NCBI GenBank assembly: GCA_037783545.1
Contig: JBBELK010000515.1
Span: 1-64,000, forward strand
Direction of reading: 5' to 3'
From: Henricia sp. BOLD:AAB3569
Lineage: Eukaryota; Echinodermata; Asteroidea; Spinulosida; Echinasteridae
DNA: 64,000 nt
Positions 1 to 37,344 of this stretch are shown in pieces (positions within the stretch are counted from its first letter, which is position 1; the number at the start of each line of letters is the position of its first letter). The translations under genes and the position numbers were made by a program. A model generated the notes under the pieces. That model had not been told where the DNA came from. It did not search any database and saw only the letters and a program-made list of their open reading frames with translations.

Positions 1-3000
1 TTCGGACTGTCGTTGACACACCCCAGTTTGGGACAGGAAATTGGTCAAAGTGTGGTCCAAACGTCGGCAAATTTGGAAGTCAAGAAATTTTCCGACGAAC
101 TTCAAATTTTGCATGCTCCAAACACTCTATATTCCGCACTTGTCCTGAAAAATTGACAGACTTTCGCCGGGAAATGGCGGAGAAATTTCAGAGTTTAGGG
201 AAAACTGGGTTAAAAAGGGGTTGGGGCTTCCTGACTGCTCCGCAACCCGTGGCTGTCTGTACGCTCCTCTTTGGTGTACTCCTGACTCGTGCGCATGCTC
301 AGTCCTTCGGACTGTCGTTGACACACCCCAGTTTGGGACAGGAAATTGGTCAAAGTGTGGTCCAAACGTCGGCAAATTTGGAAGTCAATAAATTTTCCGA
401 CGAACTTCAAATTTTGCATGCTCCAAACACTCTATATTCCGCACTTGTCCTGAAAAATTGACAGACTTTCGCCGGGAAATGGCGGAGAAATTTCAGAGTT
501 TAGGGAAAACTGGGTTGAAAAAGGGGTTGGGGCTTCCTGACTGCTCCGCAACCCGTGGCTGTCTGTACGCTCCTCTTTGGTGTACTCCTGACTCGTGCGC
601 ATGCTCAGTCCTTCGGACTGTCGTTGACACACCCCAGTTTGGGACAGGAAATTGGTCAAAGTGTGGTCCAAACGTCGGCAAATTTGGAAGTCAAGAAATT
701 TTCCGACGAACTTCAAATTTTGCATGCTCCAAACACTCTATATTCCGCACTTGTCCTGAAAAATTGACAGACTTTCGCCGGGAAATGGCGGAGAAATTTC
801 AGAGTTTAGGGAAAACTGGGTTGAAAAAGGGGTTGGGGCTTCCTGACTGCTCCGCAACCCGTGGCTGTCTGTACGCTCCTCTTTGGTGTACTCCTGACTC
901 GTGCGCATGCTCAGTCCTTCGGACTGTCGTTGACACACCCCAGTTTGGGACAGGAAATTGGTCAAAGTGTGGTCCAAACGTCGGCAAATTTGGAAGTCAA
1001 GAAATTTTCCGACGAACTTCAAATTTTGCATGCTCCAAACACTCTATATTCCGCACTTGTCCTGAAAAATTGACAGACTTTCGCCGGGAAATGGCGGAGA
1101 AATTTCAGAGTTTAGGGAAAACTGGGTTGAAAAAGGGGTTGGGGCTTCCTGACTGCTCCGCAACCCGTGGCTGTCTGTACGCTCCTCTTTGGTGTACTCC
1201 TGACTCGTGCGCATGCTAAGTCCTTCGGACTGTCGTTGACACACCCCAGTTTGGGACAGGAAATTGGTCAAAGTGTGGTCCAAACGTCGGCAAATTTGGA
1301 AGTCAAGAAATTTTCCGACGAACTTCAAATTTTGCATGCTCCAAACACTCTATATTCCGCACTTGTCCTGAAAAATTGACAGACTTTCGCCGGGAAATGG
1401 CGGAGAAATTTCAGAGTTTAGGGAAAACTGGGTTGAAAAAGGGGTTGGGGCTTCCTGACTGCTCCGCAACCCGTGGCTGTCTGTACGCTCCTCTTTGGTG
1501 TTCTCCTGACTCGTGCGCATGCTCAGTCCTTCGGACTGTCGTTGACACACCCCAGTTTGGGACAGGAAATTGGTCAAAGTGTGGTCCAAACGTCGGCAAA
1601 TTTGGAAGTCAATAAATTTTCCGACGAACTTCAAATTTTGCATGCTCCAAACACTCTATATTCCGCACTTGTCCTGAAAAATTGACAGACTTTCGCCGGG
1701 AAATGGCGGAGAAATTTCAGAGTTTAGGGAAAACTGGGTTGAAAAAGGGGTTGGGGCTTCCTGACTGCTCCGCAACCCGTGGCTGTCTGTACGCTCCTCT
1801 TTGGTGTACTCCTGACTCGTGCGCATGCTCAGTCCTTCGGACTGTCGTTGACACACCCCAGTTTGGGACAGGAAATTGGTCAAAGTGTGGTCCAAACGTC
1901 GGCAAATTTGGAAGTCAAGAAATTTTCCGACGAACTTCAAATTTTGCATGCTCCAAACACTCTATATTCCGCACTTGTCCTGAAAAATTGACAGACTTTC
2001 GCCGGGAAATGGCGGAGAAATTTCAGAGTTTAGGGAAAACTGGGTTAAAAAGGGGTTGGGGCTTCCTGACTGCTCCGCAACCCGTGGCTGTCTGTACGCT
2101 CCTCTTTGGTGTACTCCTGACTCGTGCGCATGCTCAGTCCTTCGGACTGTCGTTGACACACCCCAGTTTGGGACAGGAAATTGGTCAAAGTGTGGTCCAA
2201 ACGTCGGCAAATTTGGAAGTCAATAAATTTTCCGACGAACTTCAAATTTTGCATGCTCCAAACACTCTATATTCCGCACTTGTCCTGAAAAATTGACAGA
2301 CTTTCGCCGGGAAATGGCGGAGAAATTTCAGAGTTTAGGGAAAACTGGGTTGAAAAAGGGGTTGGGGCTTCCTGACTGCTCCGCAACCCGTGGCTGTCTG
2401 TACGCTCCTCTTTGGTGTACTCCTGACTCGTGCGCATGCTCAGTCCTTCGGACTGTCGTTGACACACCCCAGTTTGGGACAGGAAATTGGTCAAAGTGTG
2501 GTCCAAACGTCGGCAAATTTGGAAGTCAAGAAATTTTCCGACGAACTTCAAATTTTGCATGCTCCAAACACTCTATATTCCGCACTTGTCCTGAAAAATT
2601 GACAGACTTTCGCCGGGAAATGGCGGAGAAATTTCAGAGTTTAGGGAAAACTGGGTTGAAAAAGGGGTTGGGGCTTCCTGACTGCTCCGCAACCCGTGGC
2701 TGTCTGTACGCTCCTCTTTGGTGTACTCCTGACTCGTGCGCATGCTCAGTCCTTCGGACTGTCGTTGACACACCCCAGTTTGGGACAGGAAATTGGTCAA
2801 AGTGTGGTCCAAACGTCGGCAAATTTGGAAGTCAAGAAATTTTCCGACGAACTTCAAATTTTGCATGCTCCAAACACTCTATATTCCGCACTTGTCCTGA
2901 AAAATTGACAGACTTTCGCCGGGAAATGGCGGAGAAATTTCAGAGTTTAGGGAAAACTGGGTTGAAAAAGGGGTTGGGGCTTCCTGACTGCTCCGCAACC

Positions 3001-6000
3001 CGTGGCTGTCTGTACGCTCCTCTTTGGTGTACTCCTGACTCGTGCGCATGCTCAGTCCTTCGGACTGTCGTTGACACACCCCAGTTTGGGACAGGAAATT
3101 GGTCAAAGTGTGGTCCAAACGTCGGCAAATTTGGAAGTCAAGAAATTTTCCGACGAACTTCAAATTTTGCATGCTCCAAACACTCTATATTCCGCACTTG
3201 TCCTGAAAAATTGACAGACTTTCGCCGGGAAATGGCGGAGAAATTTCAGAGTTTAGGGAAAACTGGGTTAAAAAGGGGTTGGGGCTTCCTGACTGCTCCG
3301 CAACCCGTGGCTGTCTGTACGCTCCTCTTTGGTGTACTCCTGACTCGTGCGCATGCTCAGTCCTTCGGACTGTCGTTGACACACCCCAGTTTGGGACAGG
3401 AAATTGGTCAAAGTGTGGTCCAAACGTCGGCAAATTTGGAAGTCAATAAATTTTCCGACGAACTTCAAATTTTGCATGCTCCAAACACTCTATATTCCGC
3501 ACTTGTCCTGAAAAATTGACAGACTTTCGCCGGGAAATGGCGGAGAAATTTCAGAGTTTAGGGAAAACTGGGTTGAAAAAGGGGTTGGGGCTTCCTGACT
3601 GCTCCGCAACCCGTGGCTGTCTGTACGCTCCTCTTTGGTGTACTCCTGACTCGTGCGCATGCTCAGTCCTTCGGACTGTCGTTGACACACCCCAGTTTGG
3701 GACAGGAAATTGGTCAAAGTGTGGTCCAAACGTCGGCAAATTTGGAAGTCAAGAAATTTTCCGACGAACTTCAAATTTTGCATGCTCCAAACACTCTATA
3801 TTCCGCACTTGTCCTGAAAAATTGACAGACTTTCGCCGGGAAATGGCGGAGAAATTTCAGAGTTTAGGGAAAACTGGGTTAAAAAGGGGTTGGGGCTTCC
3901 TGACTGCTCCGCAACCCGTGGCTGTCTGTACGCTCCTCTTTGGTGTACTCCTGACTCGTGCGCATGCTCAGTCCTTCGGACTGTCGTTGACACACCCCAG
4001 TTTGGGACAGGAAATTGGTCAAAGTGTGGTCCAAACGTCGGCAAATTTGGAAGTCAATAAATTTTCCGACGAACTTCAAATTTTGCATGCTCCAAACACT
4101 CTATATTCCGCACTTGTCCTGAAAAATTGACAGACTTTCGCCGGGAAATGGCGGAGAAATTTCAGAGTTTAGGGAAAACTGGGTTGAAAAAGGGGTTGGG
4201 GCTTCCTGACTGCTCCGCAACCCGTGGCTGTCTGTACGCTCCTCTTTGGTGTACTCCTGACTCGTGCGCATGCTCAGTCCTTCGGACTGTCGTTGACACA
4301 CCCCAGTTTGGGACAGGAAATTGGTCAAAGTGTGGTCCAAACGTCGGCAAATTTGGAAGTCAAGAAATTTTCCGACGAACTTCAAATTTTGCATGCTCCA
4401 AACACTCTATATTCCGCACTTGTCCTGAAAAATTGACAGACTTTCGCCGGGAAATGGCGGAGAAATTTCAGAGTTTAGGGAAAACTGGGTTGAAAAAGGG
4501 GTTGGGGCTTCCTGACTGCTCCGCAACCCGTGGCTGTCTGTACGCTCCTCTTTGGTGTACTCCTGACTCGTGCGCATGCTCAGTCCTTCGGACTGTCGTT
4601 GACACACCCCAGTTTGGGACAGGAAATTGGTCAAAGTGTGGTCCAAACGTCGGCAAATTTGGAAGTCAAGAAATTTTCCGACGAACTTCAAATTTTGCAT
4701 GCTCCAAACACTCTATATTCCGCACTTGTCCTGAAAAATTGACAGACTTTCGCCGGGAAATGGCGGAGAAATTTCAGAGTTTAGGGAAAACTGGGTTGAA
4801 AAAGGGGTTGGGGCTTCCTGACTGCTCCGCAACCCGTGGCTGTCTGTACGCTCCTCTTTGGTGTACTCCTGACTCGTGCGCATGCTCAGTCCTTCGGACT
4901 GTCGTTGACACACCCCAGTTTGGGACAGGAAATTGGTCAAAGTGTGGTCCAAACGTCGGCAAATTTGGAAGTCAAGAAATTTTCCGACGAACTTCAAATT
5001 TTGCATGCTCCAAACACTCTATATTCCGCACTTGTCCTGAAAAATTGACAGACTTTCGCCGGGAAATGGCGGAGAAATTTCAGAGTTTAGGGAAAACTGG
5101 GTTAAAAAGGGGTTGGGGCTTCCTGACTGCTCCGCAACCCGTGGCTGTCTGTACGCTCCTCTTTGGTGTACTCCTGACTCGTGCGCATGCTCAGTCCTTC
5201 GGACTGTCGTTGACACACCCCAGTTTGGGACAGGAAATTGGTCAAAGTGTGGTCCAAACGTCGGCAAATTTGGAAGTCAAGAAATTTTCCGACGAACTTC
5301 AAATTTTGCATGCTCCAAACACTCTATATTCCGCACTTGTCCTGAAAAATTGACAGACTTTCGCCGGGAAATGGCGGAGAAATTTCAGAGTTTAGGGAAA
5401 ACTGGGTTGAAAAAGGGGTTGGGGCTTCCTGACTGCTCCGCAACCCGTGGCTGTCTGTACGCTCCTCTTTGGTGTACTCCTGACTCGTGCGCATGCTCAG
5501 TCCTTCGGACTGTCGTTGACACACCCCAGTTTGGGACAGGAAATTGGTCAAAGTGTGGTCCAAACGTCGGCAAATTTGGAAGTCAAGAAATTTTCCGACG
5601 AACTTCAAATTTTGCATGCTCCAAACACTCTATATTCCGCACTTGTCCTGAAAAATTGACAGACTTTCGCCGGGAAATGGCGGAGAAATTTCAGAGTTTA
5701 GGGAAAACTGGGTTGAAAAAGGGGTTGGGGCTTCCTGACTGCTCCGCAACCCGTGGCTGTCTGTACGCTCCTCTTTGGTGTACTCCTGACTCGTGCGCAT
5801 GCTCAGTCCTTCGGACTGTCGTTGACACACCCCAGTTTGGGACAGGAAATTGGTCAAAGTGTGGTCCAAACGTCGGCAAATTTGGAAGTCAAGAAATTTT
5901 CCGACGAACTTCAAATTTTGCATGCTCCAAACACTCTATATTCCGCACTTGTCCTGAAAAATTGACAGACTTTCGCCGGGAAATGGCGGAGAAATTTCAG

Positions 6001-6995
6001 AGTTTAGGGAAAACTGGGTTGAAAAAGGGGTTGGGGCTTCCTGACTGCTCCGCAACCCGTGGCTGTCTGTACGCTCCTCTTTGGTGTACTCCTGACTCGT
6101 GCGCATGCTCAGTCCTTCGGACTGTCGTTGACACACCCCAGTTTGGGACAGGAAATTGGTCAAAGTGTGGTCCAAACGTCGGCAAATTTGGAGGTCAAGA
6201 AATTTTCCGACGAACTTCAAATTTTGCATGCTCCAAACACTCTATATTCCGCACTTGTCCTGAAAAATTGACAGACTTTCGCCGGGAAATGGCGGAGAAA
6301 TTTCAGAGTTTAGGGAAAACTGGGTTGAAAAAGGGGTTGGGGCTTCCTGACTGCTCCGCAACCCGTGGCTGTCTGTACGCTCCTCTTTGGTGTACTCCTG
6401 ACTCGTGCGCATGCTCAGTCCTTCGGACTGTCGTTGACACACCCCAGTTTGGGACAGGAAATTGGTCAAAGTGTGGTCCAAACGTCGGCAAATTTGGAAG
6501 TCAAGAAATTTTCCGACGAACTTCAAATTTTGCATGCTCCAAACACTCTATATTCCGCACTTGTCCTGAAAAATTGACAGACTTTCGCCGGGAAATGGCG
6601 GAGAAATTTCAGAGTTTAGGGAAAACTGGGTTGAAAAAGGGGTTGGGGCTTCCTGACTGCTCCGCAACCCGTGGCTGTCTGTACGCTCCTCTTTGGTGTA
6701 CTCCTGACTCGTGCGCATGCTCAGTCCTTCGGACTGTCGTTGACACACCCCAGTTTGGGACAGGAAATTGGTCAAAGTGTGGTCCAAACGTCGGCAAATT
6801 TGGAAGTCAAGAAATTTTCCGACGAACTTCAAATTTTGCATGCTCCAAACACTCTATATTCCGCACTTGTCCTGAAAAATTGACAGACTTTCGCCGGGAA
6901 ATGGCGGAGAAATTTCAGAGTTTAGGGAAAACTGGGTTGAAAAAGGGGTTGGGGCTTCCTGACTGCTCCGCAACCCGTGGCTGTCTGTACGCTCT
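1..6995. repeat. 306-bp tandem satellite array, about 23 monomers, cut by the left window edge
   Basis: The same unit recurs head to tail with near identity. The common monomer is 306 bp. A variant is 305 bp because GGGTTGAAAAAGG becomes GGGTTAAAAAGG; it starts a monomer near 205, 2044, 3267, 3878 and 5101. A second marker (GTCAATAAATT instead of GTCAAGAAATT) sits near 387, 1611, 2222, 3445 and 4056. The markers repeat every six monomers (about 1834 bp), so 1682-3515 and 3516-5349 are two copies of a higher-order unit, while 5350-6995 is uniform. Each monomer contains the perfect hairpin CAGTCCTTCGGACTG. Because 306 is a multiple of three, several frames stay open over many monomers, but the 305-bp variants shift the frame and no host family is recognisable, so I treat the array as non-coding. 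The right end is abrupt at about 6995. Confidence 0.95.
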
Positions 6996-7046
6996 TCTCT
7001 CAGGGTGCACCCAAGTAATTTAGGCTCCCAAATGAACCAATGCTAA

Positions 7047-31700: not shown

Positions 31701-34700
31701 CTTAAAGATAGTATACATGATTGGTACAAATAGTTTTATCCCCCTGTGTGATTGAAGATATGCATGATTAAAACCAACCTGAGCAAAAACCAGCTCCGTA
31801 CTTTGTCAAACTTTTGAGAAAACAGTCAATAAAGGGTTTGCAGTTATTTTGCCCCAAAACCACTTCGCCCTGAACCACGGCCTGTGCACAAAGTGGTTTT
31901 GGGGCGAAGTGGCATTTGGGCGATGTAGTGTTGCGACGAAGTAATTTGGGGCGAAATGGCACTCGGGCGAAGTGGTTTGGGGCAAAATGGTTTTGGGGCG
32001 AATTGAATTTTCGTCTCATGAGACGAAAACTAATTGTTTTACTCATTTCTTAAAGACTATAGCATTTCAGACTACTATTTCAGGGGAAGTTTTCTACGGT
32101 CATCATGTTTATATTGTGTAAGTTAGGCGTAAATCTGTGAACATTTCTGATTTTCGAGATTACCAATGATCAGATGATGTATACTGCCTTTAAGAAAAGT
32201 ATGTTTCCTTTTTGGAAGAAAAATTAGTAAGGCCATGAGTAAACGTGACGCACAAACAACCGCGCAACATGCGTTAAGGTAATCTTTAGAGATAATCAAT
32301 TACTGAGAATTATAAATCAATATTCAATAAATGTGTACAATATATTCAAACAATATTTTAGCTGAGATTATTCAAAAGTAAATAAAAAATAGTTACTTTT
32401 TGTTACTTTCCTTAACTTCCCGTGAACATCGATAAGGTTGTGATTGATGCAGCTGTCAAATATCTCAGAGGAATCTGCTTTGATTCCATGGACGACCTAC
32501 AAGGTCCAAATTATCAAGTAAGTAAAAAGTTACTCTTTCTAGTCGACATAGTATGTGGTAACTCTATCAAGTTGGGGAACAAATTACAGTGATGTCCATG
32601 TAGATCAGTATATGTTGTCTTAATATTGCACGCTGAAAATTTACTTGTACATGGGTCTTTTATTTCCACAGTAAAGGGTGCATTTTGGCAACACAGGCCA
32701 TATTTTCGAGGAAATACCTTTGTCTGGTCTCAAAATAAATAAGTTTAAGTTACAGATAGGTTACAAAAAAGGTTACAAATAATGTGACCATGGAGGCAAC
32801 ATGCCTTTCTTAAAACCCTGTGTACAAATTTCCAATATGCGCTCGTAACTTGTTACATTTTAGGCCGTACCGGTTACGAGCGTATATTGCTCACAAAAGA
32901 AACATGCTTATACAGTAAACCTTGGATAAGTCGGATCCAACGGGACTGAGCGATTTTATCCGACTTAAGCGAAAATCCGACTTCCGCGAAAATCCGACTT
33001 ACGCGAAGATGAAAAAACGCATAGGGATTCATTGATCTCCAACTACCCAACGGTCGACAGTCAAAAAAGCATGAATTCCAACACCAAAACATGTTATTTT
33101 TACACTACATTTTCATACTTTTGTATAAAATTGTATACATTTTCAGCATCATTTGCCGTGCGCGATCACATTTTTTGTGCCTCAAGCGTTGCCATTGTCT
33201 GATCGTGGCCATGCAGTATATCTACACACGTGTACTGCTCAGCCCGCCCACCTTGGTCAATGAAAAATGCACCCTGTGATCACGTGTGCACATAGAAACT
33301 GCGGCTGAAAATGCACATGTGTGCAAGTGTACGGTCCATGCCAGTTCGGGAAGCTGCATGGGGCGGCCATAAAACCGGGAAATTCCTTAAAGGCCCTGTA
33401 GATGATCTGTTTTTAAGCGATTCTGCGAATAAAACCATTATAAATTAAAAGAAGGACATCAACAAACTCATCCGAAGAAATTTCAGCTTTGTCAAAATGT
33501 ACCACGTTTAAAAAAAATATGAAAATCCATATGCATTTTCCTGTCTTGGCGGGGTGTTTTAAATATTCGTTCTCAGTTGATCGGGTACTATGTGGCTTGC
33601 GTCATGCACTCTGATCTGTGGCGCACATACTGCGTGTGCGCACGATCCATAAAAATGCATCGCGTTCGGTTGGAACACGCACATGGAGTACACAGCGCCC
33701 ATGCATTTTGGACCTCGTTTGCTAACGATCTAAATAATTTCATCTTTACGGATTATTTTCTTGTAAAATTATATCATTTTGAGCGAAAACCTTTGATTGG
33801 ATAGTTGCTATTAATTCAATCTTTACTTTCAGAACTTTTCCCCTGTAAACTCGTCGATTACTTTTTGGGGTCATTGCAAATGATCCACTGGGCCTTTAAC
33901 TCCCTGCGAACATGTCAACTTTTGTCAATCCGACTTAAAAGAGGTAACCCACAAAGGAATTGAACAAATGTTCCAGATTGATGTGTTCGAGATAAGCACA
34001 AATCCGACTTACGCGATCCGACTTAAGTGATGATTTTGATTAGGAATAAGCAATTTTGTCTGAGATAAATGAAACGTATCCGACTTATGCAAGGTTTACT
34101 GTATATAGTTTTTGAGATATGGTAAAATCACACAAAGATATGGGCAAACCACAATACATTTACAAAATAAACTGTGTGAGAGTTTTGAAATAAAGCACGT
34201 AATTACTGTGAATGTTTACACTGTTCGCAGGTAATCGTTGACGATTGCGTTCCGGTCCTGAAACGCTATGCTGCCGAGGGCAGACACTTTGATTACGTCA
34301 TCAATGACCTGACGGCTATTCCAATTACCACGGAGCCACAAGGTAAGTCAACGATTATGGCAAGTGTCCAAGGCCAGTTGGGGGTGGGGGGTTATCCCAC
34401 CTTCGGACCACGGGTAAAAGCTACCCAGGTTAAGTGGCATTTTTTGGTCAGTGAACCCAGGTAATTTGTAACCTCGATATTTCTTGTGGGAATACATCTC
34501 TCTATCAATCAGAAATTGATTTACCTTGCGTCGGGGAGACTGAATATTAATTAGGATTTGTTTTTCCCTTACCCGACGTAATTAATAACACTGTATACTC
34601 GGTGCTTTCCGAAGATTGACACTATGTAAAAATTCATAGTGTGCTCGGGTGGCACTCGAACCAAAGACCTCCTGCAAACAAGGCAGACTTCTTAACCACT

Positions 34701-37344
34701 CGACCACCGAGCTAGTCGGTGTTATAATTGAAATACAGTGTTAATAATTATGTCAGGTAAGGGCAATACATCACTATCCCAGGTAATCTGTATATTGAAT
34801 TGTACACTACTCAAAATAAGTTAGGGATATTGTGGGGTGTACACAGATATTTTGAGGGTATGCATTCCGCTTGAATGATTTTGTTAGACAATTGTACCGT
34901 AATTTTCGGAATATAAGCCGCGGCTTATACGTTAATTTTGCCAAAAAAAAGGTTCCCGGCGGCTTATAAACCGGGCGGCTTATACGCCGAGCTCAAAAGA
35001 TAAAAATCATTATATGCTCATATATTATGTATTATGTATCGTGGTTCGTGAAACGATTCTATAATTTTTGTATAAAATTTTTTATTGTCAAAAAACGATG
35101 TTGAAGGCCGTCGCACGCGCACGAAAAGGTGTGCAATTTTCCCAGGTGCAGAGTGTTCCGATCTTCGTTGGTGACCCATACATCGATGTAAGGCTTGCCA
35201 CCTCTCCTGGCCTTCATTTTGGCAGGAAGCTTGGTCATCGGGATCTTGTCCTTCCTCCACCGTCGAACCATGGACTCGTCCACGTTGAATTCTCTCCCCG
35301 CCGCTCTATTGCCGTGGATTTCAGCAAAGTCCGCGGCTCTTCTTTTCAGATCGATAGTGTAACTATGTCTCTTGGAAGGCATTGTGCTAATGTGTTTGAC
35401 GATTAACAGTGATGTTAAGACCGACGACACGGGCTCTTTTATCGTGCTCAGTCATGCAAATTCAGAACCCGCGAAGTCCTGTGATAGGTACTTTGGCAGC
35501 CCACAGATCATGATTGGATAGGACAATAAGATCTATTCCTATGCAAATTTAAAACCGGGATTGGTTCGTTGGCGGGATACAGATCCTGATTGGACAGAGT
35601 ATTAGGATCTGAATCCCCTCCAGGATCCTCCCTGGTGATATTTAAGACAACATGACCACGTGAACCTACATCACATTTTGAAATCCATCAACATGAAGGT
35701 ATTCATTGAGGGCGTTTTAGCTGTTGGCATGTGCCACTATGACAACCGTGAGCTCACTGTTGGGGCAAGATACACGCTTCGACGTGACTGCAACAACGTA
35801 CGAGACGTCAATGCAGTAGCAATAATTGACCAGGAGGGGAAGAAGAAAGCAAGCCTAAAGCGAGATGCTGCGAGATTGCTGGCCAAGCTGATGGACAGCA
35901 AAGACGTATCGGTCAACATGGACATCGGATTTCTCATCAAACCCAAGAGAAATGCCTTCTTTCACTCTCCTCGGTTTGGAGTGGCACAACGCTGCAACGT
36001 GGGTTTTTTTTTAAGAAGCAACGATGAAGAAACTGTGAGACGCATTATATGCAAGGAATGCTTCACTTTTTATTTTGCTTGAAATGTTAAAAGACGACAC
36101 CAAAACCAAACAGTCCTTTTCAGGACTACCAAAAATCAAAAGAGAATGGTCTGTGGAATTGCCCATGTTTAAAGTTTAATAAAAGCTACATCTGCCAAAC
36201 AGTTCAAATAAAAATTACAAATATTATGTACCCTTAGTATAAATCCGGAAGTCAGATTTCTATCCGAATATTACACCACTGGGGCAAATTCACTAGACAA
36301 TACTCCATGGAAAAAATAAAACTATAGGGAAAATGCGACAAACAATGCTCCAAGAATTCTTTATAAAATCCATTAATGCTTTTTCCAATAAAGCCCCTTT
36401 TTGATTTCAATGAGGTTTTCTCTTGATACACTCATCAAAACAACCCGACCACAAAGCTCTCTTTGAGGCTATGCCGTGCCGACAGAGAGTGTGACTACTG
36501 CAGTGCGTGGGCGCTCGAGCGCGTGACACGCGGTGAGGCACTTACGGCCGGCGGCAGTTCTTTGTGATCGATCTGTGGCCGACAAAATGGTGCGGCTCAT
36601 AAGCCGGGCGGCTAATACGCCGACGGTAAATCTTGTTCCTGGAATTTTCGGGCGTCGCGGCTTATATTCCGGGCAGCTTATATTCCGAAAATTACGGTAT
36701 CTGCACAACAGACACCTTGTCACAAAAATAGGTAAAAGGTCATTTAAAAATTAAATTCCAAAATTGACAACAATGAACATACAGTAAAACCTGCTACATG
36801 TATTAAGGCCACCTTGATAAACAGGCCACCTGCATATAGTGGCCACCCACCTTTGGTCCCAAATGCCATGTGTATAATGCTTAAGAAACCTCTATAACGA
36901 GGCCACCATAGGGTGGCCACTATAGACAAGTTTCACTGTACCAATATCCATAACTTAATTAAGTATTGTATACATAACAGCTGCATTATGCATGACTGCA
37001 TGATGCTTCCGTATCCTGAAAATTCCCACTCTTGGATTGACTGCTTTTTCTTTCCCAATAAACATTTTTGTGTTTCTTTTGTTTGCGGTACCTGTGCCCT
37101 TGGGCCAGGCACTCAACCACACTTGCTCCATCCTTCGGAAGGGATGTAAAGCCGTTGGTCCAGTGTGTTAGGTATAAATGGTAATGCACTCTAAAGATCC
37201 CAGAGCATTCTTTCGTGAAGAGCAAGGGGATTCCCCGGTGTCTCAGGCCATTTCTAATTCTAATTCTTCATGGGTTTCCTCACGCTTGCGAGTGACAGTG
37301 CAATGAGCACTATTGAGGAATCCTTGGTATGAATACCAGAAAGA

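Follow-up and report, generated by a model that had tools for sequence, protein, structure and literature searches.

A pogo-type transposon family of the sea star Henricia that pairs a transposase with a HIRAN-domain gene and has putative histone-type 3' ends

Introduction

Cut-and-paste transposons gain copies when their excision is timed to replication or is repaired from the sister, and their inheritance needs expression in the germ line or the early embryo. A survey of the pogo superfamily, in the accessible part of its text, describes one or two open reading frames (ORFs) which encode transposases; 'cargo' and 'additional ORF' are not mentioned in the survey (PMC7386202). The same portion of the survey reports for the family Passer a BrkDBD domain, which occurs in the derived gene POGK, and a DD35D signature in nearly every member (PMC7386202). 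Helper genes on DNA transposons are exemplified by the TET/JBP-bearing elements of fungi (PMC12730594, accessible part).

Two cellular systems are relevant as well. As stated in the available text, the HIRAN domain of HLTF binds to replication forks, and its residues N90 and N91 are essential for fork reversal (PMC4666394). In animals, SLBP and U7 recognise the stem-loop and the downstream element of histone-type 3' ends (PMC5636114, accessible part), and the stem-loop is required for replication coupling (PMC2781718, accessible part).

Here we describe a pogo-type element of Henricia sp. BOLD:AAB3569 which has a HIRAN gene. It is located in a stretch of 64,000 nucleotides, hereafter the window. 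Further copies were searched in the genome assembly (740.7 Mb, 2104 contigs; C-numbers denote contigs). Groups or subfamilies of copies are defined by percent identity.

Results

Element boundaries

The sequence-only reading of the window had proposed a TA-flanked element with inverted termini and an intact 129-codon ORF. This was confirmed (Table 1). The element spans 34895-36699 and is bounded by 27-bp inverted termini with the TA inside each end; the right terminus is the reverse complement of TACCGTAATTTTCGGAATATAAGCCGC with one mismatch. At up to three mismatches these two ends were the only terminus matches in the 64 kb, with 0 expected from shuffles. Seven copies bounded by both ends, chosen among many end matches in the genome, all had TA and differing flanks (7/7), and so the family is mobile. 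A terminus search of viral contigs gave no relative.

Table 1. Features of the element in the window, and HIRAN copies in the genome
Feature	Position	Strand	Remarks
Left terminal inverted repeat	34895..34921	+	TACCGTAATTTTCGGAATATAAGCCGC; TA = 34895-34896
Subterminal repeat	34959..34990	+	GCGGCTTATAAACCGGGCGGCTTATACGCCGA; extra copies 36592-36623 (91%), 36657-36688 (84%)
Pogo-type transposase gene, 5' end	35188..35382	-	ATG at 35382; translation ...GGKPY; remainder missing
Divergent intergenic region, putative promoter, 310 bp	35383..35692	.	motif cluster
Octamer	35454, 35541		ATGCAAAT
E2F-like sites	35569; 35468		TTGGCGGG at 35569; CCCGCGAA at 35468
CCAAT motif	35513, 35560, 35589		ATTGG
TATA-like site	35639		TATTTAA
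HIRAN-domain ORF, 129 aa	35693..36082	+	Pfam PF08797, E 4.5e-9; constraint
Histone-type 3' stem-loop	36112..36127	+	AGTCCT-TTTC-AGGACT, then ACCA; 29 nt past HIRAN stop
Purine stretch, like a histone downstream element	36137..36146	+	CAAAAGAGAA; likeness to host histone genes
Right terminal inverted repeat	36673..36699	-	TA = 36698-36699
Near HIRAN copies (3)			window; C329, 95%; C636, 88%, with stop
HIRAN copies C46, C412			57%; open frame, without first four residues
HIRAN copies C291, C175, C151			3' half
HIRAN copies C1202 and two on C290			decayed (third group)
HIRAN copy C297			3' scrap

Other repeats were seen in the window. Positions 1-6998 are a satellite array (unit 306 bp, 22.9 copies, 99% matches). 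A MITE-like pair with 38-nt inverted arms lies at 34559-34770; between its arms a tRNA-like sequence (34641-34713) scored 25 bits in Rfam, below cut-off. About 130 bp past the right end of the HIRAN element is a short inverted-repeat pair with ACCTGCATATAGTGGCCACCC arms (36828-36931).

The HIRAN gene

The ORF matched the HIRAN profile with 36.4 bits (curated cut-off 24.7), so the domain assignment of the sequence-only reading stood. HIRAN is the sole domain of the protein above cut-off. A PDB search with the window protein at E<=1 retrieved HLTF HIRAN chains alone (best E 0.0021). The likeness to the HLTF domain is one of sequence and includes the NN pair, to which HLTF N90 and N91 align; in C46 and C412 the equivalent of N90 is H (HN instead of NN). 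The element's protein differs in that it stands alone, its ORF having no RING or ATPase part, and in that the equivalent of the HLTF contact residue Y93 is R. A single-sequence AlphaFold model (pLDDT 40.9) was too poor for use. In prokaryote, phage, plasmid and viral collections no relative of the protein was found, which is unsurprising for an animal element.

Searching the genome at the protein level yielded 12 HIRAN matches among 12 candidates. The 11 besides the window copy are truncated, frameshifted or interrupted. Thus, the expectation that the ORF occurs in other copies was correct for its presence; complete from ATG to stop it is found in the window copy alone. The C46 copy scored 24.4 bits with PF08797, slightly below cut-off. 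A T-run in the HIRAN gene was considered as a splice site and dropped, the downstream frame being conserved in C46 and C412; the break of C297 at the T-run is a deletion which fused transposase with the HIRAN 3' part, not splicing.

With the HIRAN profile, four places in the genome were hit: each of the three near copies and a further one on C481. The latter (L091, C481:472400-472950) looks by eye like an HLTF-like HIRAN exon and is the sole profile match outside the element. Possibly it is the source of the transposon's HIRAN gene. Since a host HLTF-like exon exists and the element's protein has no other above-cut-off domain, HIRAN might also be viewed as a dominant-negative decoy which keeps host HLTF-type repair off the element ends or off forks; we consider such a role improbable.

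The transposase gene and the parent form

In the window copy the N-terminal part of a transposase is all that is left; its matches to BrkDBD (E 0.013) and HTH_28 are both below cut-off. The remnant is 91% identical to C329 over 35430-35188. In C329 (L009) transposase and HIRAN are encoded on opposite strands, and the transposase gene starts from the intergenic region which it shares with HIRAN. Its exon 1 contains HTH_Tnp_Tc5 (3.2e-6) and its exon 2 DDE_1 (1.5e-18), both above cut-off, split by a predicted GT-AG intron of 221 bp. The spacing of the last two catalytic aspartates is 36 residues. A GT-AG intron, placed by sequence only, is present in the transposase genes of C329 and C254; the HIRAN ORF has none. 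A PCNA-box pattern was searched in the transposase and not detected.

C329 has defects of its own: it has ATA at the HIRAN start codon, a stretch of 23 nt near the HIRAN 3' end is missing and the left end was not found. C46 and C412 are without HIRAN start and promoter. A complete element with both genes intact was not found in the assembly. Judged by these sequences, the window copy was derived by deletion and has no functional transposase, and the parent form, as shown by C329, is a divergent pair of transposase and stand-alone HIRAN in a pogo-superfamily transposon. The claim of a pogo-type element with its own HIRAN gene was borne out, and the arrangement recurs in other copies. The notion of a transposon with cargo had to be corrected; two divergent genes in one element describe the parent better.

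The element shares with the pogo superfamily (Passer/Tigger-like) the TA target site, short inverted repeats, the combination of HTH_Tnp_Tc5 with DDE_1 and the 36-residue spacing. It differs by the second gene, HIRAN, and by histone-type 3' ends on both genes. For the family Passer, with its BrkDBD domain and DD35D signature, the element gives a BrkDBD match below cut-off and an aspartate spacing of 36. With the TET/JBP-bearing fungal elements, going by the accessible description, it has in common a non-transposase gene on a DNA transposon, yet their helper gene differs from HIRAN. We know of no histone-type regulation in those fungal elements.

Selection on both genes

Between diverged groups synonymous changes prevailed. 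For HIRAN, window versus C46, pS was 0.81 and pN 0.32 (Fisher p 2.8e-16). For transposase exon 2 the values were 0.72 and 0.24 between C329 and C254 (p 4.7e-19), and 0.70 and 0.18 between C329 and C46. Because the coding of both genes was kept despite saturated synonymous sites, HIRAN is an old, selected component and not recent cargo. Constraint among the near copies was not significant (p 0.083 and 0.33; pooled 0.054). Purifying selection on HIRAN, which had been suggested as a check of the sequence-only reading, is therefore seen between diverged groups and is not significant within near copies. The similar synonymous divergence of the two genes, which were compared in different copies, fits joint descent.

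HIRAN is lost or broken in many copies. Together with the HLTF-like exon at C481 this would suit a passive passenger which was taken up from a host gene, such as the part of HLTF that encodes HIRAN, and hitch-hikes in the element. However, transposase sequence adjoins HIRAN at 9 of the 12 matches and in all three groups (C636, C175 and C151 have none beside HIRAN), and the synonymous excess between groups is strong. Mere hitch-hiking is thus very improbable.

Histone-type 3' ends

Both genes have a stem-loop and a purine-rich downstream element 25-31 nt past the stop codon. The HIRAN stem-loop of the window scored 31.9 bits with Rfam Histone3, slightly below the cut-off of 34 (E 9.4e-7 for a 2-kb stretch), and was the sole match at E<=10 when the 64 kb were scanned (E 3e-5). 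The transposase gene of C329 has its own stem-loop 31 nt past the stop. On the HIRAN side it was present in nine of the 12 matches (window, C329, C636, C297, C46, C412, C291, C175, C151). For the transposase, 31 exon-2 matches gave 30 loci, of which seven repeat a place, leaving 23 distinct places; by a pattern with six paired positions 12 of these had the stem-loop and 11 did not. None was detected at C4 (two), C290 (two), C1202, C195, C682, C428 and C309; in C254 one pair of the stem is broken (27.6 bits), and C52:640439 matches weakly (21.5 bits, E 0.2). Above the Histone3 cut-off of 34 were the transposase sides of C46 (38.1 bits) and C671 (37.4 bits). The HIRAN side of C46 scored 24.0 bits and was absent at E<=1 in a larger scan. 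In the decayed third group no stem-loop was detected, neither by Rfam (two copies) nor by pattern (C1202, C290 twice).

Four short copies which consist of ends only (C708, C117, C476, C542) had no histone stem-loop by the strict pattern. This indicates that the stem-loop travels with the genes, not with the termini. A hairpin near the right end was rejected as a histone stem-loop; it passes the loosest pattern only and has another loop. AATAAA is located 44-54 nt past the stem on the HIRAN side of the window, on both sides of C46 and in C254; therefore polyadenylation is possible in several copies. On the transposase side of C329 there is no AATAAA within 200 nt.

Compensatory changes distinguish the stems of the two genes, and also those of different groups. 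On the HIRAN side AGUCCU/AGGACU contrasts with CGUCCU/AGGACG, on the transposase side AGCCCU/AGGGCU with GGCUCU/AGAGCC. Covariation was scored in 22 stem-loops (18 distinct rows), one with a broken pair. The covariation score was 0.507 compared with 0.208 for shuffled rows and 0.000-0.123 for slid partners. Changes on both sides were seen in 3/6 pairs, in 19 cells. The score and the 19 cells were each reached by 0/500 shuffles, and related rows in the alignment may beat shuffles without structure. Two of the five measures did not exceed shuffles, i.e. the number of both-sided pairs (261/500 reach 3) and the pair types (360/500). Paired cells amounted to 99.1%, a percentage which is biased because the rows were selected for showing the stem-loop.

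In the host, the genes for H2B, H4 and two H1 histones end alike, 27-34 nt past the stop; in H2B and H1, CAAAAAAGAGA / CAAAAGAGA occupy the position of the downstream element. The 3' ends of the C46 transposase and of host H2B agree at 40 of 42 positions, and thus a histone origin of the 3' end is likely. This agreement would also be expected if an ancestor had captured a piece of the host histone cluster, with promoter and 3' ends as functionless leftovers. Yet each of the two genes has kept its own stem-loop, and the compensatory changes separate groups in which synonymous sites are saturated. Moreover, stem-loop plus downstream element are the best conserved of six segments compared between window and C329 (100% identity, against 97.8% for the first 323 nt of the HIRAN coding sequence, 95.8% for the promoter, 93.8% for the stretch which precedes the stem-loop, 91% for the transposase part and 87% for the 3' UTR). 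We therefore consider functionless leftovers as quite improbable, even more so than the decoy role.

The same stem-loop and host-histone sequence evidence is compatible with another use. Oocytes and early embryos store and translate histone mRNAs, and germ-line or early-embryo expression suits transposon inheritance. The histone-type 3' ends could serve such expression, or an escape from poly(A)-linked silencing, and replication coupling would be incidental. However, the HIRAN partner is left unexplained by this, its relative HLTF acting at forks (PMC4666394, accessible part), and we regard it as rather unlikely.

The divergent intergenic region

The sites between the two genes are those which we take to be octamer, CCAAT, E2F and TATA motifs. 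The joint counts of octamer, CCAAT and E2F were reached in 0/20000 shuffles, the motif set having been picked after the sequence was seen. A milder version of the cluster had no second occurrence in the window. C1202 and both C290 copies retain a single octamer, a pair of ATTGG motifs and the TATA-like site, and their E2F-like site is mutated. In C636 two ATTGG, TTTGGCGGG and TATA are kept; octamers are absent in the stretch compared. The second octamer, found in window and C329, is within a stretch missing from other copies.

Replication-dependent histone genes occur as divergent pairs (H2A-H2B, H3-H4). The element has in common with them the divergent order, a stem-loop with downstream element about 30 nt past the stop and promoter motifs of the histone kind. 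It differs in that it encodes transposase and HIRAN, is inside a transposon and has an intron in the transposase gene. Histone genes are usually intronless, and the predicted transposase intron counts against a histone-like regulation.

Other repeats with a histone stem-loop

The genome was scanned for further stem-loops, and the best 75 of 128,444 first-look candidates were scored. None of these 75 was at the places of the HIRAN element's stem-loops. Among the matches listed were about four further dispersed repeat families (grouped by blastn) which have a downstream element besides the histone stem-loop; the adjoining sequence, read over 0.7-1.5 kb, contained no histone coding sequence. Tentatively, and with some doubt, histone mimicry may be a general transposon strategy in this host, which would place several unrelated elements under replication-dependent histone control, the HIRAN element along with a putative fork-binding helper.

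The first of the repeats (L066-L069 on C15, C84, C119 and C161) is about 2.3 kb long, has inverted ends of CAAGTCGTCCCCGAGT-like subrepeats and a canonical stem-loop with downstream element (46.9 bits); at least three more places had an equal score. In 3 kb there was no match to core histones, HIRAN or pogo transposase; H1 was checked in L066 only. A second set of related repeats comprises L070, L072, L073, L078-L080 and L085-L087, in which 0.7 kb of sequence showed no histone gene; in L072 and L079 the stem-loop is a few nt past a shared C-terminus ...DKTLSLFSACRHMIG.VI*. A third set consists of L074, L075, L077 and L083; L090 is listed with it. Here C498 and C1010 each contain two stem-loops in inverted order, separated by about 5 kb; on C1010 the interval holds an ORF which by eye resembles a C2H2-finger gene. 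A fourth dispersed repeat (L088 and L089 on C11 and C760) has a histone stem-loop of 34.4 bits. Finally, C835:231615-336473 is an array of stem-loops spaced mostly by about 4.1 kb. As the one unit read (L084) holds H4, this probably is the host histone cluster.

Discussion

The histone-type ends on both genes suggest an element which times its activity to DNA replication. Our preferred reading, to which we assign a probability of roughly 0.6, is that the element with HIRAN and transposase is under the kind of control known from divergent replication-dependent histone genes, and that co-expression in S phase aids a replication-linked transposition. A histone-like promoter together with SLBP/U7-type 3' ends would restrict both mRNAs to S phase, or alternatively to the fast cycles of embryonic and germ-line cells. 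Transposase and HIRAN would then be produced together while DNA is copied. HIRAN may bind free 3' ends or fork junctions and so may aid transposition onto, or repair from, replicating DNA, which would result in a higher copy number. The window copy, having lost most of its transposase, would rely on another copy. Points against this reading are the transposase intron, the AATAAA past the stem in several copies, the decayed third group in which no stem-loop was detected, the replaced HLTF contact residues and the lack of a complete intact element among the copies found. The joint S-phase production of a transposase and a partner which binds forks or 3' ends is inferred from the roles of SLBP/U7, of the stem-loop and of the HIRAN domain in HLTF; for a replication-coupled transposition itself, which the sequence-only reading had suggested, the histone-type 3' ends and the promoter motifs, not noticed in that reading, are indirect support.

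In the literature searched, with partial coverage of subscription journals, neither a pogo element with a HIRAN gene nor a transposon with 3' ends of the histone type was found; an earlier description is possible. If true, this would be, as far as the literature was searched, the first transposon to use the histone stem-loop under selection. The cell's S-phase mRNA programme and a putative fork- or 3'-end-recognising protein would then give the element a direct route to replication timing.
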